Below, in pieces: positions 9,465-14,820 of a stretch of DNA of 29,349 nucleotides (position 1 is its first letter; each line of letters begins with the position of its first letter). A model generated the notes under the pieces. It did no database searches. It had not been told where the DNA came from and saw only the letters and a program-made list of their open reading frames with translations. The position numbers and the translations under genes were made by a program. Source of the stretch: a virus; IMG/VR virus record IMGVR_UViG_3300037427_001973, positions 1 through 29,349 of that record; one strand, given 5' to 3'.

Positions 9465-10265
9465 ATGCAAAGAAGACGACATATTAAAAAGGTTTTAACA
9501 ACCGCCGATATTAAAACAGCTGAGAATGTTCATAATAAAAATATTGTAAGAAGAGTTGTTAATAAACCTTTCAACGGTACACCTAATTTACCTCCTAACC
9601 AATATCCTAAAGTACCTGTATCAAACGCAGCACCACCCCAACGAAATAATTTTAATTTCTCTTTTGTTGGTAATATATGGGAAGGTGAAACTGTGTATAT
9701 CTTAGGAGGAGGGCCATCTTTAAAAAATTTTAATTTTAAAGGATTACGTGGATCTAAAGTAATTGCTATTAATAAAGCTATGTATGCTTGGCCAAAATCT
9801 CAAGTATTATTTTGGACTGATAGTAGATTTTATACTTGGTATAAAAATGACGTAGATAGATTAAAGTGTTTAAAGTATACTCTTACTCCAGGATCACTAT
9901 ATACGGGAGATATAAATATTTTAAGAAAGGGAGCAGCCCATGGATTAGAAGAACCAAAAGATTCTTTAGCTCATGGTAATAATAGTGGTTATGCTGCTAT
10001 AAACTTAGCTTATCACTTAGGAGCTAAAAGAATTATATTATTAGGCTTTGATATGAGAAATGAAGGGGATGAAACTCATTTTCATGATGGCTATCCTACA
10101 AGAAGTACTTCTGATAGAATGTATGTAGATAAATTTTTACCTGGATTCAGATCATTAGCTGCATCATTAAAAGATAAAGGTGTAACTGTTCTTAATGCAT
10201 CTACTTATAGTAGGTTAGATGTTTTTACCAAAATTTCTTTAGAGGCTGCCTTATCTTTTAGATGA
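9465..10265 (+). CDS. DUF115/MptE-like protein, glycan-associated
   Basis: A 266-residue protein and the only plus-strand gene. After a basic, Pro/Asn-rich N-terminal region (1-65), the fold begins with VYILGGGPSL (77-86), a nucleotide-binding-like glycine loop. AINKAM (101-106) and FWTDSRFY (116-123) follow, then GNNSGYAAINLAYHLGAK (171-188) leading into IILLGFDM (190-197), and HFHDGYP. This order is typical of the DUF115/6-hydroxymethylpterin pyrophosphokinase MptE-like superfamily. Members occur near surface-glycan genes and in phages; their reaction there is mostly undefined. The last 15 nt overlap the 3' end of the convergent gene at 10251. Inverted orientation amid collinear genes suggests separate acquisition. 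Confidence 0.72.
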   Translation: MQRRRHIKKVLTTADIKTAENVHNKNIVRRVVNKPFNGTPNLPPNQYPKVPVSNAAPPQRNNFNFSFVGNIWEGETVYILGGGPSLKNFNFKGLRGSKVIAINKAMYAWPKSQVLFWTDSRFYTWYKNDVDRLKCLKYTLTPGSLYTGDINILRKGAAHGLEEPKDSLAHGNNSGYAAINLAYHLGAKRIILLGFDMRNEGDETHFHDGYPTRSTSDRMYVDKFLPGFRSLAASLKDKGVTVLNASTYSRLDVFTKISLEAALSFR

Positions 10266-10742
10266 TCTTTTCGCATAAGACATGAACTCTCTTTGTTCCT
10301 TTTTTAAGAGGTGTTTACAGTGTCTAGTAAATTTAATTGATGTATCTATAATTCTACCATCTACACTTTTATTCCGTGAGTTATGGGCCTTAGAACATTT
10401 ATTACAAACAAAATTTTCTACTTTCTTTGAATCCATTCTAGATTTAATAGGAACTTTACATATACCACAATTCCAATCAATAAGATCAGCATCTTTTTCT
10501 AATTCTTTAAGAGTAGTAAAAGTTTCTCTAAAAGGATTCCATATAACTTTGTTAACATTTTTTTCATGACCATTCATATCCTCTACTTTGAATATAATTT
10601 CAAATGCTTGTGTATCAGAATTTAACCATTTCATATGACGGTTATTTAAAAGCAATTTTTGTTTTAAAGGTGGTAAATTTTCTAGAAGAATTCCATATCG
10701 CCTTTTATACCATCCAAAATTTATTTTTCTAACTTTATACAT
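10251..10742 (-). CDS. Zinc-ribbon-containing protein, unknown function
   Basis: A 163-residue basic protein. I chose the internal ATG at 10742, which overlaps the preceding fucosyltransferase-like stop by 8 nt (ATGTATAA), the same geometry as at gp17. The longer in-frame start at 10823 would lie deep inside that gene and adds an unlikely N-terminus. The C-terminal half has two CxxC knuckles: CGIC and, 17 residues later, CNKC. A Lys/Arg-rich tail with RHCKHLLKKEQ follows. This suggests a structural zinc site and possibly nucleic-acid binding. The N-terminal part has WYKRRYGILLENLPPLKQ and does not resemble a family I can name; an HNH-type nuclease is possible but no clear catalytic His-Asn-His is visible. 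Confidence 0.7.
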   Translation of the reverse strand: MYKVRKINFGWYKRRYGILLENLPPLKQKLLLNNRHMKWLNSDTQAFEIIFKVEDMNGHEKNVNKVIWNPFRETFTTLKELEKDADLIDWNCGICKVPIKSRMDSKKVENFVCNKCSKAHNSRNKSVDGRIIDTSIKFTRHCKHLLKKEQREFMSYAKRSSKR

Positions 10743-11715
10743 TATCTTCAGCAAGTTTTCTAATAGGATGTCTATGTTTATCTTTTGGCCATTCCACCAC
10801 CTCATCATTAAAATAATAAACATGAGATCTATTTTCAGGTAAAACTAAATTTTCAGCTTGATGTAACCATAAATGATAATACTTTTTATAATTACTCAAA
10901 TGACAAATTTGACTAAACCAATTAACACTACTCAGCCTACCTAAAAGATATTTAGATTTCATAAGTATAAGTAAATCTAAAACTGCATCTTGATAAAATA
11001 ATGGATCTCTATAAGCAGCGTTTAGACTTTCTTTACCACCACCTCTAAATTCTTTTCGAGAAGTATCATTAGATAATTCATTTAAATATTTACTATCTCG
11101 CCACACAAGTTTTTGATTTTCATTAGAAAATTCTTTTTGTAATGATAATGCATCTTCTCTATTATCTGTGGCTACATAAATATATTCAATCTCAGAATTT
11201 TCAGAAAGGGCAACTTTAATAAGTTCTTTATATTTTTTAAAAACTTCTCTATTATAATCTTTTAATGAATTATTCTTTTTTATTCTAGTTACTTTATTAA
11301 CATCAGTCATTCTTAAATGTATTCCTAGAACATTATTAGAATTATTAAAATGAGTCTTATAAAATAAATTTGACTTTTCAATAAGCTCAGGTTTAAATTT
11401 TATTTGTTTAGAAGTTTCACGAGCATTTTTCATGTAAGTAGCCACATCTTCATAATACATAGCATGCATATTTGTAGGTGGTCCTTGATAATCTTTTTGA
11501 TCTTCAAAAAGAATAGGCTCTTGGTCAAGTATATCATCAAAAAAGTTATGGTGTGATGGTGCCATAAATGAAATAGCATTATCATTATCATTAAGGGGCC
11601 TAATAGAAAAATAAGGGTTGTTTACTGAGCCTATTTTCATTAGGTATTCCAGTAATATCATAAAGTGAGAAAATATACCACCTCCACCAGTTCTAATAAT
11701 AGTCTTCTGATTCAA
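10735..11715 (-). CDS. Fucosyltransferase-like glycosyltransferase (GT-B)
   Basis: A 326-residue protein with features of alpha-1,2/alpha-1,6-fucosyltransferases (GT11, GT23 and NodZ-like). A glycine-rich N-terminal loop TGGGGIFSHF (9-18) is comparable to GGLGNQMFQ of GT11. GIHLRMTDV (131-139) matches the HxRxxD GDP-fucose-binding motif. IYVATDN (179-185) follows. A C-terminal segment FYQDAVLDLLILMKSKYLLG, then RLSSVNWF, is like the DhxLMsxc and SSFSWW patterns of these enzymes. No membrane segment is visible. It would transfer fucose or a related sugar from a nucleotide donor; the acceptor is unknown. It lies 11 nt after the Cys-rich mini-gene and overlaps the zinc-ribbon gene. Confidence 0.7.
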   Translation of the reverse strand: MNQKTIIRTGGGGIFSHFMILLEYLMKIGSVNNPYFSIRPLNDNDNAISFMAPSHHNFFDDILDQEPILFEDQKDYQGPPTNMHAMYYEDVATYMKNARETSKQIKFKPELIEKSNLFYKTHFNNSNNVLGIHLRMTDVNKVTRIKKNNSLKDYNREVFKKYKELIKVALSENSEIEYIYVATDNREDALSLQKEFSNENQKLVWRDSKYLNELSNDTSRKEFRGGGKESLNAAYRDPLFYQDAVLDLLILMKSKYLLGRLSSVNWFSQICHLSNYKKYYHLWLHQAENLVLPENRSHVYYFNDEVVEWPKDKHRHPIRKLAEDNV

Positions 11716-11726
11716 TTCTTTTTAAT

Positions 11727-11792
11727 TTAGCAGTTACAACAAGTACAATCACATGATTTACCACAGCCGCATTTAGTACATTCACATTTCAT
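11727..11792 (-). CDS. Cys-rich 21-residue mini-protein, metallothionein-like
   Basis: This very short gene (21 codons plus TAA) is below normal gene-calling limits. Nine of its 21 residues are cysteine (positions 3, 5, 8, 10, 14, 16, 18, 19, 21), giving C-x-C, C-x-x-C and C-C spacing; the rest are mainly Lys, Gly, Thr, Asp, Glu and Asn. There is no signal peptide. It sits exactly in the space between the Lys-rich head-protein stop (14 nt upstream) and the fucosyltransferase-like start (11 nt downstream), as expected for a real gene in this tightly packed genome. Cysteine spacing resembles metallothionein domains, so binding of Zn, Cu or Cd, or an iron-sulphur-type cluster, is plausible. No homologue is known to me and the function is open. 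Confidence 0.66.
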   Translation of the reverse strand: MKCECTKCGCGKSCDCTCCNC

Positions 11793-11806
11793 AGTTAATA
11801 ATTATT

Positions 11807-12844
11807 TTACAGGTTTGGTCTTAATCTAGCAAATTTTTCAGAAACAGATTCAACTAAAGGAGTAAATGATTCTTTAGCAGCAGCTTTAGCTTTACGCTCA
11901 TCTTCAGCTTGTTTAGCTAATGCCTTTTTAGCATCTGCTTCTTTCTTTTTAAGTTCAGCAATATCTTCTTTGCTATCCTCTATTCTTTTTTCTATCTTTT
12001 GAACTTCTTCATCAGATACTCTACCTAACTTTTGATCTCTTTTAGCTTGTTCTAATTCTTTTTCTTTTTTATTAAGTTCGGTTCTTTCAGCTTCTATATT
12101 ATCATTGAATGCTTTAATATCCACTTCATAATTAATTTCTTCAGGATCTTTTTCATTTGGGCTAACATAATCCATTCTCCCAAACATACCATCATCATCT
12201 TTTTTCTTGTCATCCTTTTTTCCACCTTTATCTTCTTTGCCCTTTGCAGCAGCGGCATCAGCATCCTTTTTAAGTTCAGCTGTGGTTTTTCTTTCACCAT
12301 CATCGGTAGTTTTGCCAGTATCAGTTTTTGTATCTGTTGCTTTAGTTGTCTTTTTATCTTTTGCAGCTGCAACTTGATCAGGCGTTGCTTCATAATCAGC
12401 TAATGCTGTTTTTTGTTTAGTAGCTTTAGCTTCAAGTTCTTTTTCTTTAACTTTTAAAGTTTTCTTAATTTCTCCGGAAGCAGATTTTAATACTACTTTA
12501 TTAGCAGCAATTTTAGATTTAGTTTTTCCTAAAGAAACAACTTTCTTTAAACCATCAGTAGTTGCCAAATCATCCATTCTTTGTATAGTAAGATCTACGG
12601 TTTGGTCTATTGCTTTATTTTTAGCATCTTTGGCAAGTTCTAATTTCTTTCTTTGGTCTGGTGTTAATTCTCCTTTTGCTTTTTCTTTTTTCTTCGCATA
12701 GTCAACATCATTTAATGCTTGTGTTACCAATCCTTTTTGATACTTCTTCATATTGTTCTTAATCTTAGTATACTTAATAGGACTCTTAATTGCATCAATG
12801 ATTGCTTCATTGACAAATTCTTTATATGTTTTTAACTTTGCCAT
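11807..12844 (-). CDS. Lys/Glu-rich internal head protein with capsid-targeting sequence
   Basis: A 345-residue, highly charged, low-complexity protein. I chose ATG 12844: it follows a TATATAAA element, and the upstream in-frame extension would run through the gp23 terminator. The N-terminus contains KTYKEFVNEA (5-14), nearly the same as KTYQEFIAEA, the capsid-targeting sequence of T4 internal proteins IPI and IPIII, which gp21 cleaves after the Glu. Cleavage here would fall between E13 and A14. The body has long Lys/Ala/Asp/Glu tracts, a disordered middle (about 180-250) and a coiled coil (about 275-325). A role as a packaged core protein, binding DNA or ejected with it, is inferred. It lies directly downstream of gp23 and its terminator. 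Confidence 0.78.
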   Translation of the reverse strand: MAKLKTYKEFVNEAIIDAIKSPIKYTKIKNNMKKYQKGLVTQALNDVDYAKKKEKAKGELTPDQRKKLELAKDAKNKAIDQTVDLTIQRMDDLATTDGLKKVVSLGKTKSKIAANKVVLKSASGEIKKTLKVKEKELEAKATKQKTALADYEATPDQVAAAKDKKTTKATDTKTDTGKTTDDGERKTTAELKKDADAAAAKGKEDKGGKKDDKKKDDDGMFGRMDYVSPNEKDPEEINYEVDIKAFNDNIEAERTELNKKEKELEQAKRDQKLGRVSDEEVQKIEKRIEDSKEDIAELKKKEADAKKALAKQAEDERKAKAAAKESFTPLVESVSEKFARLRPNL

Positions 12845-12936: not shown

Positions 12937-14820
12937 TTAGATAAGTGAACAACCAGTGAACGTAAAGTTCATTGTGTAATACATTAATTCAGGATTGAAT
13001 CCAGCATCTACTAAAGCGAATCTAGATTTAACCGCAATTTTAGGAGCCATAGTTCCTTCTGCGATTGTCTCAACAGATTCAGCCATTAAGTAAGGCATGA
13101 ATACTAAACCAGGAGAGTTACCATCACCTTTTCTTCCTACACAGATTGTATAGTCATTAAAAGCTCTGTTTGGATCAACATAAACAGTTACCCCAGCGAT
13201 CGCACCGATTGGATATAAAGATCCACCAGCTTGATTAACTGTATTTGATAACGGATATGCAACGAATCCAGCAACTGATTGAAGAGCAGTAGCCATTTCT
13301 CCACCTGTTACAGCGAAGGTAGCTGGTCCTCTTCTACCTCTAGTAGCAATTAAGTTACTTGCAGCAAGAATCTTAGTGTAGACTCTTCTCTGTAAAGTAC
13401 CTTGAGTATTACCACCACCTAGTACGTTAGTCTGTACTGGGAATGCAGCCAAGAATGCACCTGTCGTTAAAATACCATTACCAGTGTTATTCGCACCTAA
13501 TGTAATAGCAGCACCGGCCTGTGCAGCCTGTCCGTTGAATTGCTCAGATAATGAAGTACCGTTTACGTTACCAATATTGATAGTGTTAGTTACACCATTT
13601 CTGAAAATTCTATCCAAGATATACTTGTTGATAGATTGAGTTAACTCATTAACTAATACAGCCTCAACTTGAGCAACAGCATCAATTCCGAATTGCTTCA
13701 GATCTTGAACTTGTTCTCTAGTTACAGCAGCAGCAACTTGGAAAGTTTCAGCAGCTACAGACTTGTTGAATAAGCTAAGTCCCATAATGTTATCAACAGT
13801 TGATTCACCTACACCTCTTTGGTAAGGATCTAAACCGTTAGCATTCTGGTTAGCGAATTGTGGTCCGCCAGTAGCAGGATCATTCGCTGGTTGGAAAGCA
13901 TTACCAGAGAAACCAGTAATATGGTCTTCTAGAGCTTTTACTAAACCTAAGTTAGGAGTAGCACCTACAGTTGCAACAATGTTACCTGCAACTATTACAG
14001 CAGCTAATGCTGGTCTAACACCACCTACTCTTGCAAGTCCGTGAAGTCTTGCACCAGCAGTAATAGAGTTATAAATAGTTGAAGCAGCAGTTTCAGCACC
14101 TTGTGCATAGTTAAATCCACTGTTTACAGTAGAACCAGCAACAGGAGCAGCACCAGGAGCAACAATAGTTGCAGTAGTGTTACCTCTTACTCTGAATATT
14201 GGTAAACCGTCAATTCTTGAAGTTCCAACAAAAGTTAATTCGTAAGAAGCAGCAACAGTGTTACCAGCAACCGGAGTTACAGCAGCAGCAGATGAGTTAA
14301 ATTGATCTGCATAGTAAAGGTCATTTACTGCAAAAGCAGAAGCATCATCGTTAGTTGCTGAAAACTTGATCATTAATGGAGCAGCAGTAGTATCAAGGTT
14401 ACCATTTACAGGTGCACCTGATCCTCTACCTCCACCGTATACAAAGTCTAGGTAAGTTAAAACTCCCATAGGGCCTTGCATTGGTACTACAGGAACTAAG
14501 TCTAAACCTACAGTCTGTGCAGCTACTTGCATTGCAAGTGGTAGCAAAGAAAAAGGTCTGTCTCCAGATCCAGCAGCTTGTGCTGGGAAAGCATTCATTG
14601 ATCCAGGGTTTCCTGGCAATGTAACGTTACCCATACTTTGAACATTCATGTTCGGGTTAAGGTGTACAGTATTGTAAACACTCTCATTAAGGTTGTGGTA
14701 GTGACAGTACTTAGACATCCAAGCTAACTTAGATTTTTCAGTTATGCCAGTACTTTCCTCAATAACAGGTCCCCAAGTCTTTTGAACCTCAGCCTCGTTG
14801 ATTAATTGATTTGCGTACAT
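12937..14820 (-). CDS. 23: Major capsid protein, gp23-like
   Basis: A 627-residue HK97-fold capsid protein. The N-terminal half has the gp23 features KTWGPVIEE (14-22), SKLAWMSKYC, and LLPLAMQVAAQTVGLDLVPV leading to VPMQGPMGVLTYLDFVYG. This corresponds to T4 VGVQPMNGPTGQVFALRAVY. The C-terminal half has the usual LKQFGIDAVAQVEAVLVNEL, LATRGRRGPATF and GDGNSPGLVFMPYL segments. T4 gp23 has 521 residues; the extra length looks like Ala/Gly/Thr-rich sequence around 150-330, probably a surface insertion domain. LINEA at 7-11 could be the gp21 cleavage site, leaving a very short propeptide compared with 65 residues in T4. Codons look less AT-rich than in neighbours, as expected for high expression. 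A strong terminator follows. Confidence 0.95.
   Translation of the reverse strand: MYANQLINEAEVQKTWGPVIEESTGITEKSKLAWMSKYCHYHNLNESVYNTVHLNPNMNVQSMGNVTLPGNPGSMNAFPAQAAGSGDRPFSLLPLAMQVAAQTVGLDLVPVVPMQGPMGVLTYLDFVYGGGRGSGAPVNGNLDTTAAPLMIKFSATNDDASAFAVNDLYYADQFNSSAAAVTPVAGNTVAASYELTFVGTSRIDGLPIFRVRGNTTATIVAPGAAPVAGSTVNSGFNYAQGAETAASTIYNSITAGARLHGLARVGGVRPALAAVIVAGNIVATVGATPNLGLVKALEDHITGFSGNAFQPANDPATGGPQFANQNANGLDPYQRGVGESTVDNIMGLSLFNKSVAAETFQVAAAVTREQVQDLKQFGIDAVAQVEAVLVNELTQSINKYILDRIFRNGVTNTINIGNVNGTSLSEQFNGQAAQAGAAITLGANNTGNGILTTGAFLAAFPVQTNVLGGGNTQGTLQRRVYTKILAASNLIATRGRRGPATFAVTGGEMATALQSVAGFVAYPLSNTVNQAGGSLYPIGAIAGVTVYVDPNRAFNDYTICVGRKGDGNSPGLVFMPYLMAESVETIAEGTMAPKIAVKSRFALVDAGFNPELMYYTMNFTFTGCSLI

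Follow-up and report, generated by a model that had tools for sequence, protein, structure and literature searches.

The described systems closest to the gene reported here are small, cysteine-rich peptides of several kinds. Bacterial metallothioneins of the SmtA type exceed 50 residues, use His ligands and adopt a zinc-finger-like fold, and the copper metallothioneins of fungi are peptides of ~25 residues with C-x-C motifs in which seven Cys form one cluster. Attenuators built on cysteine runs are known in mycobacteria. Among metallothionein clusters, Zn3Cys9 and M3Cys9 are established (PMC10612145). Here we describe a 21-residue peptide with nine Cys that is encoded by several lineages of phages and by the chromosomes of one genus of Flavobacteriaceae.

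A nine-cysteine peptide gene in a T4-like phage

The window, by which we mean the whole 29,349-nucleotide stretch of DNA analyzed, is part of a T4-like phage with gp23 capsid, portal, and prohead protease genes. The peptide gene occupies its minus strand from 11792 to 11727, running ATG-AAA-TGT...TGC-TAA, and its 22 codons (MKCECTKCGCGKSCDCTCCNC followed by TAA) place Cys at residues 3, 5, 8, 10, 14, 16, 18, 19, and 21. A preliminary description had reported a frame of this kind at 11727-11792, and reading of the ORFs, the cysteine pattern, and conservation in relatives confirm it and assign it to the minus strand; the plus strand at these positions is interrupted by a stop. An in-frame stop 5 codons 5' of the ATG rules out that the frame is the end of a longer one. 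The nine-Cys codon pattern matches once in the window and never in 100 dinucleotide shuffles of it, ~9e-5 nine-Cys 20-codon stretches are expected from the base composition of the window, and the Cys share of the window's own genes is only 0.7%.

The close neighbors of the peptide gene all point in the same direction, in the order capsid, 345-residue Lys/Ala/Glu-rich protein, peptide, fucosyltransferase-like gene, 163-residue protein. The major capsid gene (12937..14820, minus strand) belongs to the gp23 family (PF07068, E 1.9e-30). Downstream of it, a late gene (11807..12844, minus strand) encodes the 345-residue product, which represents a conserved neighbor cluster (cluster 1) and matches no Pfam family. 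Its N-terminus, MAKLKTYKEFVNEA, resembles the T4-type capsid targeting sequence, and on that basis we regard the product as internal head protein-like. The concept of a capsid targeting sequence derives from T4 internal head proteins (PMC9026906).

The peptide gene is separated from its upstream neighbor by 14 nt and from the fucosyltransferase-like gene, which starts with TTG, by 11 nt, as the preliminary description had stated. The 14-nt spacer (11793..11806, minus strand) is AT-rich and without Shine-Dalgarno-like sequence, with AATAATTATTAACT preceding the ATG; most related loci keep it as (A)AATAATTATTAAT/ACT, and it belongs to the cassette that empty sites lack. The O-fucosyltransferase-like gene (10735..11715, minus strand) matches PF10250 at E 3.4e-6 with 27.3 bits, below the curated 31.5. 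It is itself an accessory insert between the peptide gene and the gene for the 163-residue protein, found in the window and in four relatives (L028, L029, L032, and L039) and missing from most others (cluster 23). The 163-residue protein (10251..10742, minus strand; cluster 2) bears two CxxC knuckles; its gene forms the right edge of the insertion site and lies directly 3' of the peptide gene in most relatives. Beyond it, an MptE-like gene (9465-10265, plus strand; cluster 5) is oriented opposite to all its neighbors in 46 related loci, with a Pfam match to PF01973 for a relative. A frame read from its sequence as a GroES-like co-chaperonin occupies 1792-2058, in the phage structural region.

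The window's capsid protein is nearest to those of an uncultured 462-kb phage and of Bacteroidota phages, and the terminase of Flavobacterium phage immuto shares 58% identity with the terminase of a different group of peptide carriers. Since the nearest relatives of both proteins point there, the hosts of the peptide-bearing phages are likely Bacteroidota.

Selection, gain and loss, and spread among phages

We gathered relatives of the window by the capsid gene alone, to keep the sampling independent of cysteines, and scored the 49 loci with enough downstream sequence; some of the loci counted are near-duplicates, with 34 distinct capsids among 50, and all peptide-carrying phage loci are metagenomic. 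An intact 21-residue counterpart is present in ~23 of the 49 loci, directly 3' of the internal-head-like gene or its neighbor, and the other 26 are without one. No decayed copies were found in these loci, even at a generous threshold. Across 14 distinct phage versions, dN/dS is 0.18 in the peptide frame, whereas the two remaining forward frames give 1.21 and 0.93. Synonymous changes between TGT and TGC occur freely while Cys is kept, and the Cys and their spacing are constant while the spacer residues vary, both here and in the Cys-selected set introduced below. The single ligand change in the capsid-selected set is Cys16 to His in one phage version, and His is itself a metal ligand. Conserved ATG, frame, and cysteines, which the preliminary description had named as features to seek in related phages, are thus all present, with low dN/dS in the frame. 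The peptide frame is a genuine protein-coding gene under selection, not a chance occurrence.

Presence and absence, placed on the capsid tree, imply at least 5-6 changes, and a clean ~80-bp insertion is what distinguishes occupied from empty sites (L024 versus L028 and L038). The phage gene is an accessory cassette under purifying selection.

A DNA pattern of Cys alone also matched TGC repeats, and viral and genome matches were therefore filtered; the strict pattern comprised nine Cys plus the stop. It matched at least 120 viral contigs, and filtering of all loci left at least 93 distinct phage peptides of 20-23 residues that end at the ninth Cys and come from several phage lineages. Because the search itself demanded the nine Cys, this set is informative only in its spacers, lengths, and contexts. 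Each of 11 carrier phage records (65-210 kb) holds exactly one copy. The peptide is absent from the whole records of six isolate or reference phages: Flavobacterium phages immuto and MaF61, Microcystis phage Mel-JY01, Tenacibaculum phage PTm1, Chryseobacterium phage MA9V-2, and LR756500. A tblastn search of annotated phages with the 21-residue peptide returned no match, a result that probably reflects low-complexity filtering of the peptide rather than its absence.

Genomic context differs between phage groups. In the window's group the peptide gene is 3' of the internal-head-like gene; elsewhere it precedes a FAD oxidoreductase locus, sits between internal-head-like genes and a primase-like gene, adjoins tail sheath genes, or lies near the portal gene of another phage type. 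The common theme is mostly one of late structural or internal-head-protein clusters. By a loose pattern, capsid-targeting-like N-termini occur in 53% of the immediate upstream genes versus 19% of background frames. A large and diverse set of neighbors (clusters 0, 1, 13, 22, 24-26, 30, 31, and 33) has such starts, with motifs including FDLRKYLAEGKL, MKLSxIILE, and KTYxEFVNEA, and to judge from these motifs the set likely includes many injected internal head proteins.

The FAD/NAD-dependent oxidoreductase (cluster 3; for example, a 437-aa protein, L321 D1) fills 50 neighbor positions in peptide-bearing phages and shares 24-30% identity with genes from Campylobacter phages and from phage contigs of the gut. 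Up to 60 nt after the peptide stop, 37 loci carry a small RNA hairpin (for example, at about 3300-3400 of L187) that has no Rfam match. Its loop, ATTCATAGC, is invariant, and its 5-bp stem covaries and is 100% paired over 10 distinct versions, with 17 two-sided changes. This hairpin, then a terminator-like hairpin and T-run, lie upstream of the phage FAD oxidoreductase gene. As a regulator of the peptide the small hairpin was considered and rejected, since it stays with the oxidoreductase locus when other genes intervene.

Host copies on flavobacterial chromosomes

The strict pattern also matched one of 400 Flavobacteriaceae genomes, on a contig with glutamine synthetase and Ca/Na-type antiporter genes. 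Within the genus of that genome, 18 of 25 streamlined genomes (0.8-1.3 Mb) have the peptide gene, one chromosomal copy lying on a 1.11-Mb contig. No other match was found in samples, partly overlapping, of 396 Bacteroidota, 198 Flavobacteriales, and 95 further relatives. Named from sequence, the neighbors are prfA-like, purM-like, glnA, antiporter, peptide, and pirin-like; their identity in all 17 genomes examined indicates that the host copies are chromosomal and vertically kept. Among chromosomal copies dN/dS is 0.08. The gene called next after the peptide is on the opposite strand in several host genomes, and a msrA-like gene is found some genes away. No metal transporter or regulator was recognized beside the gene other than the host Ca/Na-type antiporter, which is possibly unrelated. 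In the syntenic genomes (L461-L477), a conserved, DnaA-box-like AAAGTTATTAACAA element follows the host peptide stop by ~35-60 nt.

The peptide of the window and that of the host are identical at 15 of 21 residues, and the GC content of the host loci (0.29-0.31) matches that of the window (0.297). Spacer agreement between phage and host is 2.8 of 10 versus 1.34 by chance (0 of 500 permutations); agreement so far beyond chance makes common descent of the two likely. These findings lend strong support to the preliminary description's view of a metallothionein-like peptide that is real and conserved, and the chromosomal copies show that the gene is not confined to phages. The description had also proposed inhibition of a host metalloprotein, a role that is now less likely because bacteria themselves keep the gene.

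A candidate minimal metallothionein

The pattern shared by these peptides is C-x-C-x2-C-x-C-x3-C-x-C-x-C-C-x-C. All nine Cys columns are invariant in a sample of 15, and likewise in the capsid-selected set save the one change to His. Cys makes up 42.7% of phage peptides (20-23 residues) and 43.1% of host peptides (21 residues), and the commonest other residues are N, K, T, S, D, G, and E. Among the matches listed, Phe, Trp, and Tyr occur in none of 93 phage peptides and His in two of them; one of 17 host peptides has a single Tyr. Of the features by which metallothioneins are defined functionally, those that a sequence can show are seen here: low molecular weight, very high Cys content, C-x-C, C-x-x-C, and C-C arrangements, and few aromatics or His. 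To our knowledge, no metallothionein is as short as 21 residues.

Searches of Pfam, NCBIfam, and PDB linked the peptide significantly to none of the known metallothionein families. At E 10, neither Metallothio_Pro (SmtA) nor any NCBIfam model matched, and three members had no match in PHROGs v4 at the same threshold. The best near-matches, both non-significant, were to Metallothio_2 (PF01439; one phage member, E 2.4, 9.6 bits versus a cut-off of 23) and, in PDB, to wheat Ec (2kak, E 7.4). We found no description of a phage or viral metallothionein in the open-access literature, and the earlier statement that no phage gene of this type had been described agrees with this and with the empty Pfam, NCBIfam, and PHROGs scans. 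By its likely mechanism we place the peptide with the metallothioneins, as a new and very short form and as a member of no existing family.

What else might such a gene be? A frame this short could be a DNA or RNA signal, or a chance product, that reads as Cys-rich, and we assign this reading a negligible probability: TGT and TGC interchange under retention of Cys, dN/dS is low in the peptide frame only among the forward frames, and the 21-codon length is kept in phage and chromosomal settings alike. Short length, Cys density, and, in the phage group of the window, a distance of 11-14 nt to the next gene would also suit a regulatory leader, at whose Cys codons ribosomes would stall under Cys scarcity to control the downstream gene, leaving the peptide itself jobless. 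We consider this quite improbable. The downstream genes vary by lineage and are mostly not recognizable as cysteine genes, which, together with the stand-alone gene of the hosts, disfavors a leader role; where the next host gene is called on the opposite strand, there is nothing to lead. In addition, a terminator-like hairpin lies 3' of the peptide in one group, the longest Cys run is two, and codon stalling leaves the single-Cys spacing, the Cys-to-His change, and the conserved spacers unexplained.

A thiol or redox function, in which the peptide would serve as a glutathione-like reservoir or scavenger and exchange disulfides rather than bind metal, would leave a pattern similar to that of a metallothionein. 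Many phage copies adjoin the FAD-dependent oxidoreductase gene, at the 50 neighbor positions noted above, and the host copies have their msrA-like gene some genes away. However, a conserved gap containing a terminator-like hairpin separates the oxidoreductase from the peptide, no oxidoreductase is found beside the peptide in the window's group, and fixed C-x-C spacing and the Cys-to-His variant suit metal ligands better; on balance we judge this function unlikely. Slightly more doubtful still is a metal-binding adaptor, a zinc-folded peptide akin to a free-standing zinc knuckle that would dock on one specific host enzyme or phage head protein and alter its activity or assembly. Most phage copies have internal head, capsid, portal, or tail genes around them, which would fit such a partner, as would the excess of capsid-targeting-like starts among neighbors, but the spacers are variable, mostly small and hydrophilic, and present no conserved docking surface, and the chromosomal copies occur without a phage head context.

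The reading we prefer, and consider probable, is that the peptide is a minimal, one-domain metallothionein that phages carry as a host-type auxiliary gene, with metal binding as its predicted activity. Composition and pattern, including the free spacers and the Cys-to-His change that keeps a ligand, are of the metallothionein type. The non-significant profile and structure matches, a length below that of any metallothionein known to us, and the failure to recognize a metal gene next door, the host antiporter aside, weigh against this reading. The nine conserved thiol ligands, borne on a short, hydrophilic, aromatic-free chain, would wrap a single metal-thiolate cluster, probably with about three Zn(II), by analogy with M3Cys9, or several Cu(I). 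Some streamlined flavobacteria have the peptide as a stand-alone chromosomal gene, and there it would act as a constitutive or stress-linked buffer of Zn or Cu. Phages may have taken up or exchanged this host-type gene and would express it together with head and tail genes late in infection; there the peptide might buffer Zn or Cu released by the turnover of host metalloproteins and maintain a reduced reserve of metal and thiols during virion production. Metal identity, late timing, and physiological role are, like metal binding, what we infer from these arguments. With confidence a little better than even, we propose an undescribed metallothionein family, the smallest genetically encoded, that resides on the chromosomes of one flavobacterial genus and is auxiliary in several lineages of large phages, to which it brings a late metal buffer.

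If so, metal buffering would join the jobs that phages take over, and one could test whether virion production is limited by the release or the supply of metal. The peptide would offer a minimal natural metal-thiolate system that is easy to synthesize and test, and genes below standard annotation length would prove able to be widespread and strongly selected.

Among known systems, the first comparison is with metallothioneins as a class. Like the animal beta domain (M3Cys9) and wheat Ec, it has nine Cys per cluster, C-x-C and C-C motifs, virtually no aromatics, and small polar spacers; it differs as a single 21-residue domain of presumed metal binding, lacking significant homology to the class. 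Bacterial SmtA/PmtA (Metallothio_Pro) is likewise a small Cys-rich bacterial peptide with presumed Zn handling. The second half of the peptide is similar to the C-x-C-G-x-x-C-x-C-x-x-C-x-C pattern in the C-terminal domain of plant type 2 metallothioneins (PF01439), a likeness that is probably convergent. Closest in size are the fungal copper metallothioneins of the Neurospora and Agaricus type, which have seven Cys, other spacing, and no C-C pair. The polycysteine leader peptides of mycobacteria are likewise very short Cys-rich frames ahead of genes, whereas the peptide described here is without their run of adjacent Cys codons and their regulatory position, and its host copies stand alone.
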